From: Arthrobacter sp. MYb23 | Lineage (GTDB): Bacteria > Actinomycetota > Actinomycetes > Actinomycetales > Micrococcaceae | DNA length: 64,000 bases | Direction of reading: 5' to 3' | NCBI RefSeq assembly: GCF_002979775.1 | Contig: NZ_PCPR01000001.1 | Coordinates: 372,001 to 436,000 of the forward strand | Shown here: positions 40,065 to 45,730 of the stretch, in pieces | How positions within the stretch are numbered: the first letter of the stretch is position 1 | Layout of the letters: every line of letters begins with the position of its first letter | Program-made: the position numbers and the translations under genes | The notes under the pieces: model-generated | Told to the model about the DNA's origin: nothing | Seen by the model: only the letters and a program-made list of their open reading frames with translations | Databases searched by the model: none

Positions 40065-40150
40065 CAGAATATGCGGAGCGGGTGATTTCAGTCAAGCGTT
40101 CCTTCCCCGGTGACGCAGATGCTTAGCCCTGTTTGCGCGGCTCTGCGTTG

Positions 40151-40183
40151 TTGACAAGATCCGCGCTTCCCGCCGTGTTAACT
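40151..40183 (+). promoter_or_regulatory. Possible promoter of the LMW phosphatase gene
   Basis: TTGACA at 40151 is a consensus -35 box; TTAACT or TGTTAA about 19-21 bases on is the best -10 candidate. The spacing is a little long, so the call is tentative. Confidence 0.35.
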
Positions 40184-40231
40184 TGGGGTGGGACCTCGGT
40201 TGTCCCCCTTACCGCTAGAAAAGAGCCTTAC

Positions 40232-40828
40232 GTGGAATCGCCCCAACCCTTCAGGATTCTCACCGTCTGCACAGGGAACATCTGCCGCTCCCCCGTGGCC
40301 GAACGGTTGCTGCAGACCGGGCTGAACCAGGTAAGCCCCGGATCCTTCGAAGTGCGCAGCGCCGGAACACGGGCCATGGTGGGTGAGCCCATCCAGCCAC
40401 TCTCAGCACAAATCATCAGCACGTTCCGCGGCAGCCCGGACGGCTTCGCGGCCAGGCAGCTAACCCCCCGGATCCTCAAGGAAACAGACCTGGTGCTGGC
40501 CATGACCTCCAAGCACCGCGGCGAGGTACTCCAACTGGATGCATCCCTGTTGAAGCGCACCTTCACAGTGCGCGAATTCGCCCGGATGCTGTCCGTGCTG
40601 GAAAACCGTGGTGATACTGTCCCGGCCGGTAACATCACGGAGTTCTGGCGCGCACTCCCCACCCGCGCGGCTTCCGTGCGCCACCTCGCATTGCCGTCCG
40701 ATCCTGCAGACAACGATGTGGTAGACCCCTTCCGACGATCGGAAGAGGTCTACCACCAGATGGAGGATGAGCTGGCCCCGGCCATCCTAGGCATCCTCCG
40801 TTACGCGCGCCTGACGGCGCCGGCCTAG
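40232..40828 (+). CDS. Low-molecular-weight protein-tyrosine phosphatase
   Basis: The 198-residue enzyme has the P-loop CTGNICRSP (Cys13 nucleophile, CX5R) near its N-terminus and a DPADNDVVDPF segment holding the general-acid Asp-Pro. In actinobacteria such Wzb/PtpA-like phosphatases are linked to exopolysaccharide export or signalling; the polysaccharide cluster is about 10 kb away. The GTG at 40232 with AAAGAG upstream gives the normal N-terminus; the open frame begins at 40133. Confidence 0.9.
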   Translation: MESPQPFRILTVCTGNICRSPVAERLLQTGLNQVSPGSFEVRSAGTRAMVGEPIQPLSAQIISTFRGSPDGFAARQLTPRILKETDLVLAMTSKHRGEVLQLDASLLKRTFTVREFARMLSVLENRGDTVPAGNITEFWRALPTRAASVRHLALPSDPADNDVVDPFRRSEEVYHQMEDELAPAILGILRYARLTAPA

Positions 40829-40842
40829 TTGGTTATTGATTA

Positions 40843-41889
40843 TTAGTTAAGGGCGATCACCAGCATCTGGCTGGTGCCGGGGATGCACGTCTGCAGGACC
40901 ACTGCAGGGAATCCGCCGAACACTGCTGCGACGTCATTGGTGCTCCCGGGGTTGGGCACCTGGCCCCTGCCCGTGGCCGTGAAGGTTCCGTAGCCCGGTA
41001 TTGAAACGGTTTCGCCCACGCTGATCCCGGAGAACCGGCCCCACCCTCCACAGAAATCATGCTCGGTGATAAAAGTGGCGTAGGCGTTGGTTGGCGTGTA
41101 ATGAATAGGCCCGATGCAGGCGTCCACCATTGATTGCCCACCGGCTCCAGCAACATAAATGGTCCTCACAGCGGGTGCGGGGGCTGGTGCCGGAGCGGGC
41201 GCAGGAACCACAATCGCGGGAGCGGCGGCCTGTGCTTGCGCAGCCGGTGCGGCGGGGGCTGCAGGTGCTGCAGGTGCTGGTGCCAGCGCTGGAGCGGCCA
41301 CCGCAATGGGCGGTCCCGTGAGCTTCAAAACCTGTCCCGGCACGATCACCGAGTAGGCGCTCAGACCATTGGCAGCCAACATGGCCGTGACGTCCACGCC
41401 ATAGCGCGAAGCGATCGAACCAACAGTGTCACCGGACGCCACCGTGTAGAGGTTGGGATCCCCGGCAGGCGCGGCAGGGGCGGCCTCCACAGCAGCTTGA
41501 GCTGCCGGCTCCGAGGCGGGCGGAGCACCCTCCTGTGCGGGAGCTGCTGGTGCTTCAGCCGGGGCCGCTGCCGCTGCAGGCGCTTCAGCCGCAGGCACTT
41601 CAGCTGGGGGCGCGGCTACTGCCTCCGCATCCTGGATGGGTATAGCCGCGGGCGCTTCGGCACTATCGCCCTTCGAAAACGGTGCTTGGTCCTGCGACAC
41701 CGTCTGGTCAACGTCACCGGAAGGTTGCGTCGCCCAGTTGACCACCCCAAAAAACAGGGGAATCAAAGCTAAAATCGCGAGCACCGCACCGGCAATCAAC
41801 AGCTTGGATTTACTGGACTGCGGCGGCCGAACATTTCTACTGCTCTTGGTTGACAGGGAAGTTTGAAGATCTACGTCATTCATATTCAT
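40843..41889 (-). CDS. LysM protein with a sortase-like C-terminal domain
   Basis: The 348-residue product has a cytosolic start, one membrane helix (about 29-50), an Ala/Pro-rich wall-spanning linker, a LysM domain (about 147-190; YTVASGDTVGSIASRYG) that binds peptidoglycan, a second Ala/Pro linker, and a C-terminal domain of about 105 residues. That domain resembles sortases: TEHDFCGGWGRFSGISVGETV contains a candidate His277 and VVLQTCIPG a candidate Cys335 (TLxTC-like). The Arg that normally follows is absent (SQMLVIAL). So it may be an inactive or altered sortase relative. The start may also be 41883. Confidence 0.8.
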   Translation of the reverse strand: MNMNDVDLQTSLSTKSSRNVRPPQSSKSKLLIAGAVLAILALIPLFFGVVNWATQPSGDVDQTVSQDQAPFSKGDSAEAPAAIPIQDAEAVAAPPAEVPAAEAPAAAAAPAEAPAAPAQEGAPPASEPAAQAAVEAAPAAPAGDPNLYTVASGDTVGSIASRYGVDVTAMLAANGLSAYSVIVPGQVLKLTGPPIAVAAPALAPAPAAPAAPAAPAAQAQAAAPAIVVPAPAPAPAPAPAVRTIYVAGAGGQSMVDACIGPIHYTPTNAYATFITEHDFCGGWGRFSGISVGETVSIPGYGTFTATGRGQVPNPGSTNDVAAVFGGFPAVVLQTCIPGTSQMLVIALN

Positions 41890-42392
41890 GGGAAACCCCG
41901 GACTCCATGGCTCTGGACCGCGCATGACAGGCCGTTATTGGCCCGAATGAGAAAGCGCAGCTACGTATTGGGAGGAGCACCACCCACAAGTGGCGGGGGT
42001 GCAGTCCACCGCTGAGCCGGAGGAACGGAAGTGCAATAACCCTACGAATTCCAATAGTAGGAATGGGCCCTTCCTGCCGCACGAGTAGGAACTACTCGAC
42101 TTTCCTCCGGAGGGCCTGAACGGTTACTTGGGCATTACGCAGTTTCTGGAAATGGACTACTTGCTCAGGCCGGAGTCGCTGCCGTGCAGGCAGCCGTGCA
42201 GGCAGCAGCAGGCTGCCGTGCAGGCTGCCTTGCAGGCAGCAGCAGGCTGCCGTGCAGGCAGCCTTGCAGGCAGGAACCGCTGATCCCCGGGCATGGATCA
42301 AACGGATCAGCGATCGGCTTGCCTGTGCTCCGCCGCAGTACGTTGAGCCAAGCCCCCACGCCCTCACTGCTGCTGCCAACACCAAGGAACTC
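41890..42392. other. 503-base gene-free region with hairpin and repeats
   Basis: No convincing gene lies between the LysM protein and the LCP gene. It holds a perfect 7-bp hairpin CGAGTAG-GAA-CTACTCG (42082-42098), the 34-bp-period array at 42181-42272, and presumably both divergent promoters. Open frames through the array change with strand and are not coding-like. Confidence 0.6.
42181..42272. repeat. Composite tandem array, 34-bp period (12+12+10)
   Basis: The order is 12-mer, 12-mer, 10-mer repeated: GCCGTGCAGGCA twice, GCAGCAGGCT, GCCGTGCAGGCT, GCCTTGCAGGCA, GCAGCAGGCT, GCCGTGCAGGCA, GCCTTGCAGGCA. GGCAGC-AGCAG-GCTGCC forms a perfect 6-bp stem in each full period. The period is not a multiple of 3, which argues against a protein repeat. 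It lies 120 bases upstream of the LCP start. Confidence 0.85.
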
Positions 42393-43457
42393 ATGACGCT
42401 CCCGACCCATGCCCAAAAGCCCTCCGCGGAATCGGGTTCCCGCCGTCAAAAGAACCGCAGGAAGACTGCCCGGAATGTGCTCCTTGGATTCGCGGCCGCT
42501 GTGCTTGTGGTTGGCATTGTTGCCGGGGCCTATGTCTACAACCTGATACAAACATTCGACTCCGGCTCCACCAAAATCGAGAACGCTTTCCCGGAAGAAT
42601 CCACCCGGCCACAAAAAGCCGAGGGAAACACCGCAATGAACATTCTGGTGATGGGCAGCGATAGCCGCGGCGCTGACGTGGATGTGGAAACCAATGCCGC
42701 AACTAACCAGCGTGCGGACACCCTCATGTTGGTGCACCTTCCGGCCGACCGGAAAAAGGCCTACGCAATTTCCCTGATGCGGGATCTGTGGATTGATATC
42801 CCGGGAAAGGGCGAATCAAAGATCAACGCCGCGCTTGCCCACGGCGGTGTCCCGCTCATGGTTCAGACCGTCGAGTCGCTCTTTGACCAGCGCATCGATC
42901 ACGTGGCAATGATCGACTTCGAAGGCTTCAAGGGCCTCACTGACGCTCTCGGTGGCGTGGAGGTTGACATCAAGATTCCTTTCACGCCAAGCTCAGGACC
43001 CATGGCCGGGCAGGAATATGAAGCAGGAAAGCATGCCTTCGACGGCGATGAAGCCCTCGCCTTTGTCCGCGAGCGCTATGCGTTCAGTGATGGCGACTAC
43101 CAGCGCGTTCGAAACCAACAGGCTTACCTCAAATCCATGATCGGCAAGATCATTGCCCGTGAAACCCTGACTAATCCGGTGACCATCAGCAATATGGTCT
43201 CGGCGGTGTCCCCGTTCGTGAGCGTGGACAAGGACTTTGACGCTGCAGCGATCGGTAACCTTTCCCTGTCCATGAAAGATGTCCGCGCCCAAGACACCGT
43301 CATGTTCACCCTCCCTACCATTGGCACGGGAACCTCAACGGATGGGCAGTCGATTGTCCTGGCTGACACCACTGCGATCGCCGACATCGCAGCTGCACTC
43401 TCCAAGGATCAAGTGGGCGTGTACGTTACGGCGCACGCCCTCGACAAAGGACAGTAA
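42393..43457 (+). CDS. LytR-CpsA-Psr (LCP) family protein
   Basis: This 354-residue membrane-anchored transferase attaches polysaccharide or teichoic-type polymers to peptidoglycan. Basic N-terminus, one membrane helix (about 28-52), then the LCP domain: ILVMGSDSRGADVD, NQRADTLMLVHLPADR, ISLMRDLWIDIPG, and EALAFVRERYAFSDGDYQRVRNQQ in sections, which holds the conserved Arg residues. AAGGAA before the ATG at 42393 fixes the start. The unusual repeat array is in its leader. Confidence 0.92.
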   Translation: MTLPTHAQKPSAESGSRRQKNRRKTARNVLLGFAAAVLVVGIVAGAYVYNLIQTFDSGSTKIENAFPEESTRPQKAEGNTAMNILVMGSDSRGADVDVETNAATNQRADTLMLVHLPADRKKAYAISLMRDLWIDIPGKGESKINAALAHGGVPLMVQTVESLFDQRIDHVAMIDFEGFKGLTDALGGVEVDIKIPFTPSSGPMAGQEYEAGKHAFDGDEALAFVRERYAFSDGDYQRVRNQQAYLKSMIGKIIARETLTNPVTISNMVSAVSPFVSVDKDFDAAAIGNLSLSMKDVRAQDTVMFTLPTIGTGTSTDGQSIVLADTTAIADIAAALSKDQVGVYVTAHALDKGQ

Positions 43458-43460
43458 GCG

Positions 43461-44174
43461 TCAGCCGCTGGTGAGGGTGTGGGCACTTCCCCACTTGTTG
43501 AATGGGAACAGGAAACCGTCAACACGGCCAATGATGTCCGCCCGGCCGGCTGTCTTGACGCAGCTGGGCTGTGATCCCACGCTGCGGCATGACGTGACGG
43601 AATCCTCGGAATTGGAGCGGTGGTCGCCCAAGAGAAGGTACTGGTCCCCGCCCAGGTGGATGGGTCCGAAGCAACGCGGCGACCTTGCCGTCGTCGAACA
43701 GTCCGTTCTGCCGCCGACGAACGCGAGGTCTTCGAAGACGTACGGTTCCGCAACGGGGGCACCGTTGACGGTGACCTGACCGCTGGCATCGCAGCATTCC
43801 ACAGTGTCACCGGGCAAACCCACCACCCGCTTCACCAGATATTCGGTGTTGGCAGGACCGATTCCGGTCAGCTCACCAAACCAACCGACTCCTGTACGCA
43901 GGGCGCCCCTATCCGGCGCGGGCCCCCATCCTGTCGGTTTCTTGAAGACAACAACGTCGCCCCGTTGAGGTGCCGAAGCCGTGTAGGCAATGCGGTTCAC
44001 CAGCACGCGGTCGCCAACGTTGAGGGTCTGCTCCATGGACCCCGAAGGCACCGAGTAGACCTTCACCAGGAAACCTTGAACCAAGGAGACCACTATGAGG
44101 GCGAGCAGGACGTGAATCCACGGTGAGCGAAGCGTCCAACGGCGCTTGGCGGCTTTCGTCGTTTGGGAAGTCAT
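43461..44174 (-). CDS. lepB: Signal peptidase I
   Basis: This 237-residue serine-lysine protease removes signal peptides outside the membrane. One N-terminal helix (about 19-37); box B PSGSMEQTL with Ser46; box D YLVKRVVGLPGD with Lys115; box E LLLGDHRSNSEDS. Start ATG 44174; a TTG at 44222 in the same frame overlaps the upstream gene. It follows a Tat-type secreted protein gene by 28 bases and may process it. Two Cys pairs (ECCDAS, SCRSVGSQPSC) are of interest. Confidence 0.93.
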   Translation of the reverse strand: MTSQTTKAAKRRWTLRSPWIHVLLALIVVSLVQGFLVKVYSVPSGSMEQTLNVGDRVLVNRIAYTASAPQRGDVVVFKKPTGWGPAPDRGALRTGVGWFGELTGIGPANTEYLVKRVVGLPGDTVECCDASGQVTVNGAPVAEPYVFEDLAFVGGRTDCSTTARSPRCFGPIHLGGDQYLLLGDHRSNSEDSVTSCRSVGSQPSCVKTAGRADIIGRVDGFLFPFNKWGSAHTLTSG

Positions 44175-44202
44175 GTTTGCGGGCAGGGTCTGAGAACGAC
44201 GT

Positions 44203-44844
44203 CTAGAGGATGCCCGCGCCAATGGGGACGGAGATGCTGCTGGTAGCGGTCAGAGTGCGTCCTCCAATGACAACAGTCACTGTGACGGGGAAAGAGGCAA
44301 GCAAGCTCACGGACACACCAGTGCTGGTGCCCGCTAATCCGAAAGCAATAGGGAGGTTCAGTGTCCCGTTGCCCGCCACCGTGATGGGGACACTGTTGCT
44401 CCACGTGGTGGACGGGAAGCCGTACTGTCCGATCAACGGCGCGCTCTGGTACGTCGTAGTGCGTTGGGCGGCGGTGGTGGCTGCCCCGTTGAAGGAGTAC
44501 ACACCAAAGCCTCGTGCCCGGCCAACAGGAAGGTTGATGCCTGAAGGACGGGAAATCGACACCGTCACCAGAGCGTTCTCCGTAACCGCACCTGGACCGT
44601 TGGTGAACGTGAGGATGGTGGGGACGGTGACCAGTGCCTGGGCTGTGAGCGCGCTGGTGCCGTCAAGAAGCCGGAGGCTGAGGAGGGAGGTGGAAGATGC
44701 TGTGAAAGCAAGGCCCAAGGTATTCACTGAAGCTACCGCCGCAGGAGCCGCGACTGCGGCAGCAATCACGGGCATGGACCAGGCTGCGCCCTTAACCACG
44801 GCGCGCCGGGAGTGCGGACTGAAAACCGTAACTTCATTGCTCAT
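44203..44844 (-). CDS. Secreted protein with Tat-like signal
   Basis: The N-terminus has SRRAVVKGAAWSMPVIAAAVAAP, a twin-arginine (SRRxxxK) signal with Ala-rich core ending AAVAS. The mature ~175 residues are Thr/Ser/Gly-rich, nearly lacking charged residues, with strand-like repeats (TVTVVIGGRTLTATSSISV), suggesting an immunoglobulin-like or fibre-like surface protein. AGAAGAGC precedes the ATG at 44844; 44862 is possible. It lies directly upstream of lepB. No family recognised. Confidence 0.75.
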   Translation of the reverse strand: MSNEVTVFSPHSRRAVVKGAAWSMPVIAAAVAAPAAVASVNTLGLAFTASSTSLLSLRLLDGTSALTAQALVTVPTILTFTNGPGAVTENALVTVSISRPSGINLPVGRARGFGVYSFNGAATTAAQRTTTYQSAPLIGQYGFPSTTWSNSVPITVAGNGTLNLPIAFGLAGTSTGVSVSLLASFPVTVTVVIGGRTLTATSSISVPIGAGIL

Positions 44845-44920
44845 TGCTCTTCTTTCGCTCATTTTGAGCCGACGTTACGATACCCGGGAAGCCGTGCAAC
44901 AGCCGTTGTAGCAGGAAGGG

Positions 44921-45337: not shown

Positions 45338-45360
45338 ATCTGGCCTTTCTTGACGCTCCT

Positions 45361-45455
45361 GCGCCGTCTGATGCTCCCGGCGCCGTCTGACGCTTCCGGC
45401 GCACTCTTACAGTTCCCGCGCACTCTGACGCTTCCGGCGCACTCTGACAGTTCCG
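45361..45455. repeat. 19-bp tandem repeats, five copies
   Basis: Five head-to-tail 19-base units begin GCGC and end TTCCG or similar, for example GCGCACTCTGACGCTTCCG and GCGCACTCTGACAGTTCCG. Partial copies continue on each side (TTGACGCTCCT before, GCGCC after). Copies are degenerate at 2-5 positions. They lie between the VanZ gene and the hybrid kinase gene, in the region where both promoters should be. Confidence 0.85.
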
Positions 45456-45730
45456 GCGCCCCGTAATGGACTACACCAACTATAGGAGTGAACGAGCCAC
45501 CGCCCAGGCGGACCGACGCACTTGGGCTATGGCTGTCCTGGAGCCGCTACTTGTCCCACGAAGGGTGGACACGCTATGACTTCAGCCGTCAAAAGTGTGT
45601 GATCCACCCCTCACCAAGGCTTTTCGGCGTATGCTCTCCTCAGCGCAGACTAGCGGCGTTGTTCGCTTGGGGTAAGGCCACTTTTGAAGGCGGGGGTTCA
45701 GTGGCAGCAGTTAAGCAGGGGGTTTCTCCA
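45456..45730 (+). other. Leader of the hybrid kinase gene
   Basis: The frame of the kinase is open through this stretch (to 45488), but the codons give a Trp/Arg-rich sequence unlike the rest, and the strong AGGGGG site sits only before the ATG at 45731. I treat it as untranslated leader with the promoter. Nothing else is seen. Confidence 0.55.

Follow-up and report, generated by a model that had tools for sequence, protein, structure and literature searches.

The locus analysed here raises the question whether a surface protein that joins a LysM domain to a sortase-like C-terminal domain without the usual catalytic Arg is a working enzyme, and of which kind. The protein is encoded on the reverse strand of a 64,000-nucleotide stretch of the genome of Arthrobacter sp. 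MYb23, referred to below as the window. We conclude that its C-terminal domain is a variant sortase, of that fold by prediction but outside the Pfam family Sortase (PF04203). As the most likely reading, and with roughly even confidence, we infer catalysis, location and substrate as those of a wall-lodged thiol enzyme of altered specificity.

Gene layout and domain architecture

Residue numbers (LysM 160-202, His289, Cys347 and the others) refer to the 360-aa form of the protein, which starts at the first ATG. The following features were assigned, with fractions referring to the 108 distinct domains of the family described below:

40843..41889 (-): LysM/sortase-like surface protein gene, open reading frame of 348 aa
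40843..41925 (-): same open reading frame with the upstream first ATG (41925) taken as start, 360 aa
41740..41802 (-): predicted N-terminal membrane anchor LLIAGAVLAILALIPLFFGVV, read by eye from the sequence, about residues 42-62
41449..41739 (-): spacer 1, rich in Ala, Pro and Glu, about 97 aa, presumably wall-spanning
41320..41448 (-): LysM domain (PF01476), residues 160-202, E 4.6e-14
41173..41319 (-): spacer 2, rich in Ala and Pro, 49 aa, read from the sequence
40846..41172 (-): sortase-like C-terminal domain, 109 aa, from models, fold matches and a profile match to sortases
41116..41118 (-): Cys270 (DAC), first of two further conserved Cys, kept in 107/108
41062..41064 (-): Glu288 before the His, characteristic of the part of the family that mostly lacks Arg, Glu in 90/108
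41059..41061 (-): His289, equivalent of the catalytic His, 106/108, aligned with the sortase His, follows model strand 39-43
41050..41052 (-): Cys292 (HxxCGG), kept in 107/108
40888..40890 (-): Thr346 preceding the nucleophile-position Cys, Thr in 100 and Ser in 5 of 108, equivalent to Thr207 of SpySrtA
40885..40887 (-): Cys347, nucleophile-position Cys (QTC), 106/108, aligned with the sortase Cys
40861..40863 (-): Leu355, after Gln-Met, at the sortase Arg position by alignment with sortases, Arg in 15/108

The LysM domain scored 52.5 bits in Pfam at a cut-off of 20.9. NCBIfam added weak matches, far under its cut-offs, to LysM surface proteins such as SafA and SAG1386/EF1546, which share the spacer and the LysM domain; the matched stretches stop by residue 238, before the C-terminal domain. 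That domain, which carries the motifs TEHDFCGG and VVLQTCIPG and ends in SQMLVIALN, had no match in Pfam, NCBIfam or PHROGs, and nine relatives scanned against NCBIfam gave the same result for theirs. PF04203 did not match the whole protein or the domain at E<=10, and a sequence search of the PDB with the domain alone or with a profile returned no credible match to a sortase or any other protein. The layout given by the first-pass annotation, a membrane anchor, an Ala/Pro-rich spacer, a LysM domain and a C-terminal domain of about 105 residues, is borne out by the open reading frame, the Pfam match and the sequence itself.

Predicted fold and relation to sortases

Two AlphaFold2 models were analysed. 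Model 1 was built for the window domain from an alignment of 27 of the 66 loci of close relatives (pLDDT 75, pTM 0.73, with the stretch before residue 35 poor), and model 2 with a Sinomonas sequence in first place (pLDDT 70, pTM 0.67); the two are not independent, since their alignments share nearly the same relatives. Foldseek and VIA-align returned sortases throughout the 50 matches listed for each model, with SrtA, B, C, D, E and F entries among them. Among these listed matches the best Foldseek E-values were 9.6e-3 (model 1) and 1.3e-2 (model 2), with none <0.001, and TM-scores by query length were <=0.49. VIA-align Z-scores of the matches listed were 5.4-7.2 for model 1 (best match rmsd 3.6, 102 residues aligned) and 5.2-6.7 for model 2 (best match rmsd 3.3, 97 aligned), moderate values in the range <8 where the tool warns of common arrangements. 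It is thus the consistency of the match lists rather than the absolute scores that argues for a predicted sortase beta-barrel; a fold unrelated to sortases, named beforehand as the finding that would speak against the assignment, does not appear among the matches listed.

A sequence-based comparison agrees with the models. The 108-row family profile matched a profile of 33 Pfam-recognised sortases of the same bacterial family, one of them a fragment, over the whole domain with E 1.3e-5; the His and the Cys of the two profiles coincide, and the Arg of the sortases falls on Leu355. With the rows reordered the score was 35.0 (E 2.7e-5), compared with a maximum of 20.4 in 200 column shuffles and 11.2 for the reversed alignment. 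Circular shifts were dropped as a control since they retain real segments (best of 23, 34.7). The 47 rows from outside the Micrococcaceae gave E 2.5e-5 alone and the 61 Micrococcaceae rows a weak E 0.017, so the sequence link to sortases leans on the 47 distant rows.

In model and alignment, His289 stands where sortases carry their catalytic His, behind strand beta4 (model strand 39-43), and VLQTC corresponds to the TLxTC-like motif, its Cys ending the next-to-last strand; each residue is kept in 106/108 domains. Near the start of the last strand, where the catalytic Arg is expected, stands Leu355. Fold matches, profile alignment and conservation together support the sortase-like identity first suggested by motif spacing. 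Because PF04203 does not recognise the domain and the Arg is missing, we call it sortase-fold and do not file it under that Pfam entry. With sortases of classes A, C and E, among them SpySrtA and the SrtE enzymes of Thermobifida fusca and Streptomyces avermitilis, it shares the predicted fold, the membrane tether, a His after one strand and a Thr-Cys ending another. It differs in that its branch lacks the Arg and has Glu before the His and Gln before Thr-Cys, and in that it bears two further conserved Cys and is missed by PF04203.

Distribution, conservation and loss of the arginine

The 66 loci of close relatives found by genome scan are all recorded as Arthrobacter, Paenarthrobacter (a member of the Micrococcaceae), Pseudarthrobacter or Sinomonas. 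In profile searches the domain family was present in 149/198 genomes of the genus of the window, 13/396 genomes of an order sample, 5/396 of a phylum sample, and 27/249, 8/47 and 9/120 genomes of a second, third and fourth bacterial family (f19, f9 and f24). It is an unnamed sortase-fold family spread over four bacterial families, and no description of it was found in the open-access literature searched (sortase with LysM, pseudosortase, Arg-less sortase homologues, actinobacteria). Domains were recovered by script from 132/133 loci, the exception (L071) being a weak match at E 0.36, and merging of identical copies left 108 distinct domains, 61 from Micrococcaceae and 47 from elsewhere. All family counts take in only matches with a recovered locus; the genus-wide search (149/198) contributes none. 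The window domain is 99% identical to its four nearest relatives, and identity falls to 25-34% in distant rows. Some f19 genomes carry several copies of the domain (example loci L098, L118 and L112): G850 has four and G981 five, and one contig of G981 holds two copies separated by about 1.1 kb.

A recurrent design is seen across the family: the protein starts with a hydrophobic stretch and has the sortase-like domain at its opposite end, frequently with a spacer in addition. By crude hydropathy, stretches of the anchor type occur in relatives too. The fusion of LysM and sortase-like domain described in the first-pass annotation holds for the window protein and for 46/61 distinct Micrococcaceae proteins, but it is not a constant of the family, as the same LysM model found the domain in 0/47 proteins from elsewhere. 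This tally is rough, with one protein cut by a contig end (L062) and another that reads oddly (L061); a first letter-pattern search had found 23 proteins, and a model built from such hits raised the count to 46/61. The model found no LysM in Sinomonas, in P. aurescens-type copies (L068, L069) or in some others. In the 46 LysM-bearing relatives the spacer from the transmembrane segment to LysM had a median of 86.5 aa (range 23-130). Outside the Micrococcaceae, Pfam identified an SH3 domain in L122, the sole confirmed case; another was seen by eye in L079 and not confirmed by Pfam. Four of the nine f24 proteins (L089, L129, L131, L136) bear a motif that we take to be lipobox-like.

The C-terminal domain is under strong purifying selection, with a median dN/dS of 0.098 and a maximum of 0.27 over the last 100 codons (60 sequences, 1436 pairs, dS 0.1-1.2). 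Both catalytic-type residues pointed out at the outset proved to be real: the His and the QTC Cys are identical in 61/61 Micrococcaceae domains and kept in 106/108 each family-wide, and a lack of their conservation in homologues, which had been put forward as contrary evidence, was looked for and not found. The Micrococcaceae domains are also invariant (61/61) in the other two Cys and in Glu-His-Asp and QTC. Family-wide, the further Cys of DAC and HxxC are each kept in 107/108, and the Thr (100/108) or Ser (5/108) before the nucleophile-position Cys is preceded by Gln in 105/108. Losses are confined to single sequences: L116 lacks the equivalents of the His, Cys270 and Cys292 and keeps that of Cys347, L103 lacks the His alone, with Arg in its place, and L135 lacks the QTC Cys and keeps the other two. 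L136 is cut by a contig end.

The replacement of the Arg, likewise predicted from the single sequence, is general among the closer relatives, where the aligned position holds Arg in 0/61, Leu in 59 and Ile in 2 of the Micrococcaceae domains. Across the family it holds L, S, V, A, I, T, H, Q and others, with Ser in 8/108. Arg is absent from 93/108 rows, among them one gap (sequence cut by a contig end) and one Lys. Where Arg is present (15 rows), its position is Cys+8 in 11 cases and Cys+9 in 3; the remaining row, L135, is without that Cys. A spacing of Cys+8 is also that of Cys208 and Arg216 in SpySrtA (excerpts of PMC9520033).

On a tree built from 61 rows, 14 of them Micrococcaceae after thinning, and 110 columns, with the trait columns excluded, one branch (98/94) separates 15 rows, 11 with Arg and 14 with [A/S]HN, from 46 rows, 4 with Arg and most with EH[D/W]. 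The tree thus divides the family into one side that mostly keeps the Arg and reads [A/S]HN and another that mostly lacks it and reads EH[D/W]. At the fewest, the Arg changes 6 times on this tree, 5 of these changes being forced by starred branches; some long branches are unsure, L122 and L135 among them. Of the 108 domains, 87 have Glu but no Arg (counting one gap), 12 have Arg but no Glu, 3 have both and 6 have neither. Compensation of the Arg loss by Glu was considered and rejected: on a quick tree of the 108 rows there were 6 independent pairs counting all branches and only 2 on starred branches (sign test, median p 1). The relation is a pattern and not evidence of compensation. L122 (genome G103, f9) combines SH3 with the three Cys, reads ASC in place of QTC and has its Arg at Cys+9; this divergent member is a possible bridge to canonical sortases, though on a very long branch.

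As a control, Arg was found at this position in 31/33 aligned canonical sortases; one has Asn and one a gap in a fragment. The Micrococcaceae also possess sortases of a GHV...LITC type, which we take to be class F. These showed Asn in 19/19 readable sequences, the residue being placed by alignment in L003 and by motif in the other 18 (L173-L188, L191, L192; 18 readable of 20 stretches, L189 and L190 being left out); a few have Arg some residues earlier, which would allow for a shift of the loop. Searched against PDB sequences, L187 of this type gave no match at E<=0.001. Class-F-like sortases of the same bacterial family thus also seem to be without the Arg, and because of this Asn the Arg loss has company among accepted sortases. 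They differ from the family described here in being found by PF04203 and in having a longer loop from the Cys to the last strand, another motif around the His and, in the two read fully (L003 domain, L187), a single Cys.

Candidate mechanism, alternatives and genome context

In the favoured reading, a membrane-tethered surface protein held by LysM would perform thiol acyl transfer or hydrolysis. Cys347 would attack a peptide bond in a substrate of the wall or the cell surface, with His289 as acid/base and Thr346 and backbone amides holding the oxyanion. Unlike in LPXTG sortases, the substrate would not be gripped by Arg, and it is because of this changed grip that specificity would be altered. 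LysM and the spacers may hold the domain inside the peptidoglycan or beyond it, at a distance from the membrane, which is where sortases encounter lipid II. Judged from their co-occurrence, Cys270 and Cys292 most likely form a disulfide, which would brace the stretch next to the His.

Whether the Arg of sortases belongs to the oxyanion hole or grips the substrate is itself debated, and the excerpts of PMC9520033 ask for more work on this point. In SpySrtA, by the same excerpts, R216A is dead on the enzyme's own substrates and T207A essentially so; the Arg contacts the P4 and P3 carbonyls, not P1, and is argued to be substrate-binding, and the oxyanion hole is ascribed to Thr207 and the amides of residues 143 and 208. 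The evolved SrtA-beta carries R197S and is active on LMVGG (excerpts of PMC9126251; discussed in those of PMC9520033). It shares the Arg loss with the present family, including the Ser found here in 8/108 rows, and differs as a laboratory-evolved class A enzyme with many other changes. A kept His, Thr and Cys next to a drifting Arg site fits a working active site in which the Arg became dispensable, and since Thr-Cys and His are kept, an active thiol enzyme with a changed substrate grip is the simplest reading. Sequence does not decide between enzyme and pseudo-enzyme; we lean towards the former. Against this, since R216A abolishes the activity of SpySrtA, the loss of the Arg here could mean that catalysis is lost, and His and Cys may also be conserved for binding or metal coordination.

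The most serious alternative, which we rate as possible and at about one chance in three, is accordingly that of a pseudo-enzyme, a sortase fold turned into a binding module for wall peptide or protein, with His and Cys kept for binding or stability. The absence of Arg from 93/108 rows, an architecture of LysM and spacer typical of binding proteins and the fact that no substrate gene was seen in the neighbourhood would suit it. It accounts less well for the retention of His (106), Thr/Ser (105) and QTC Cys (106) in 108 domains despite identities down to 25-34%, and for a branch of the same family that retains His, Cys and Arg together.

A zinc site or redox disulfide formed by three Cys and the His within a sortase-like barrel is improbable. 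These residues, arranged as C, HxxC and C along the sequence, belong to the least variable of the family; the sortase triad is, however, retained in the Arg-bearing branch, and the losses in L116, L135 and L103, each a single sequence, suggest that the Cys270-Cys292 pair is separate from Cys347.

An ordinary sortase anchoring LPXTG-type proteins and missed by Pfam, in line with the fold, His and Cys, is the least likely of all, as the Arg is absent, PF04203 misses this gene in its own genome yet matches three other loci, both PF00746 anchors over the cut-off lie on other contigs, one (C34:285470) close to a canonical sortase (C34:284596), a simple motif scan of the window gave no LPXTG-like C-terminus, and the spacers should shift the domain from the membrane.

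For the thiol enzyme with a changed substrate grip, a wider proposal is put forward tentatively, as something rather doubtful: that there are Arg-independent sortase-fold enzymes, acting within or outside the wall and not at the membrane, in which an EH[D/W]xxCGG...QTC site, its Glu next to the His, replaces Cys-His-Arg and whose targets are wall peptides or surface proteins without LPXTG. Here a natural family keeps His, Thr/Ser and Cys at 97-98% while the Arg is mostly confined to one branch, so that Arg-plus and Arg-minus members offer a natural direct test of the role of the sortase Arg. If the domain is active, it could also supply ligases of novel specificity; if it is not, the proteins would form an uncharacterised wall-protein family missed by the profile libraries searched.

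The neighbours of the gene in the window are a low-molecular-weight phosphatase gene (40133-40828, PF01451), with which it converges, and a LytR-CpsA-Psr gene (42252-43457, PF03816), from which it diverges. Crude gene calling gave recurrent neighbours around many loci, and three loci (L030, L064, L068) were read gene by gene beyond the counted neighbours; those of L030 read as housekeeping genes (thioredoxin, ABC transporter, CBS, YajQ-like; names by reading). No substrate gene or operon partner was found near the gene or at the relatives' loci examined. A function deduced from operon or neighbours was discarded as unsupported, the paa/LMW-phosphatase neighbourhood being common to 8/66 loci and the LytR-CpsA-Psr neighbour to 2/66.

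Some minor features of the window were also recorded. A tandem array (42178-42273; 34-bp unit, 2.8 copies at 95%, also readable as 12-bp units) lies between the divergent LysM/sortase-like and LytR-CpsA-Psr genes. Another (45351-45460, 19/38-bp units) is located just upstream of a long open reading frame at 45488 whose sequence, judged by reading, suggests a hybrid histidine kinase. The open reading frame 44203-44862 (-), without a Pfam match, overlaps with its end the start of a signal peptidase reading frame (43461-44222), and its N-terminus resembles an export signal by eye.
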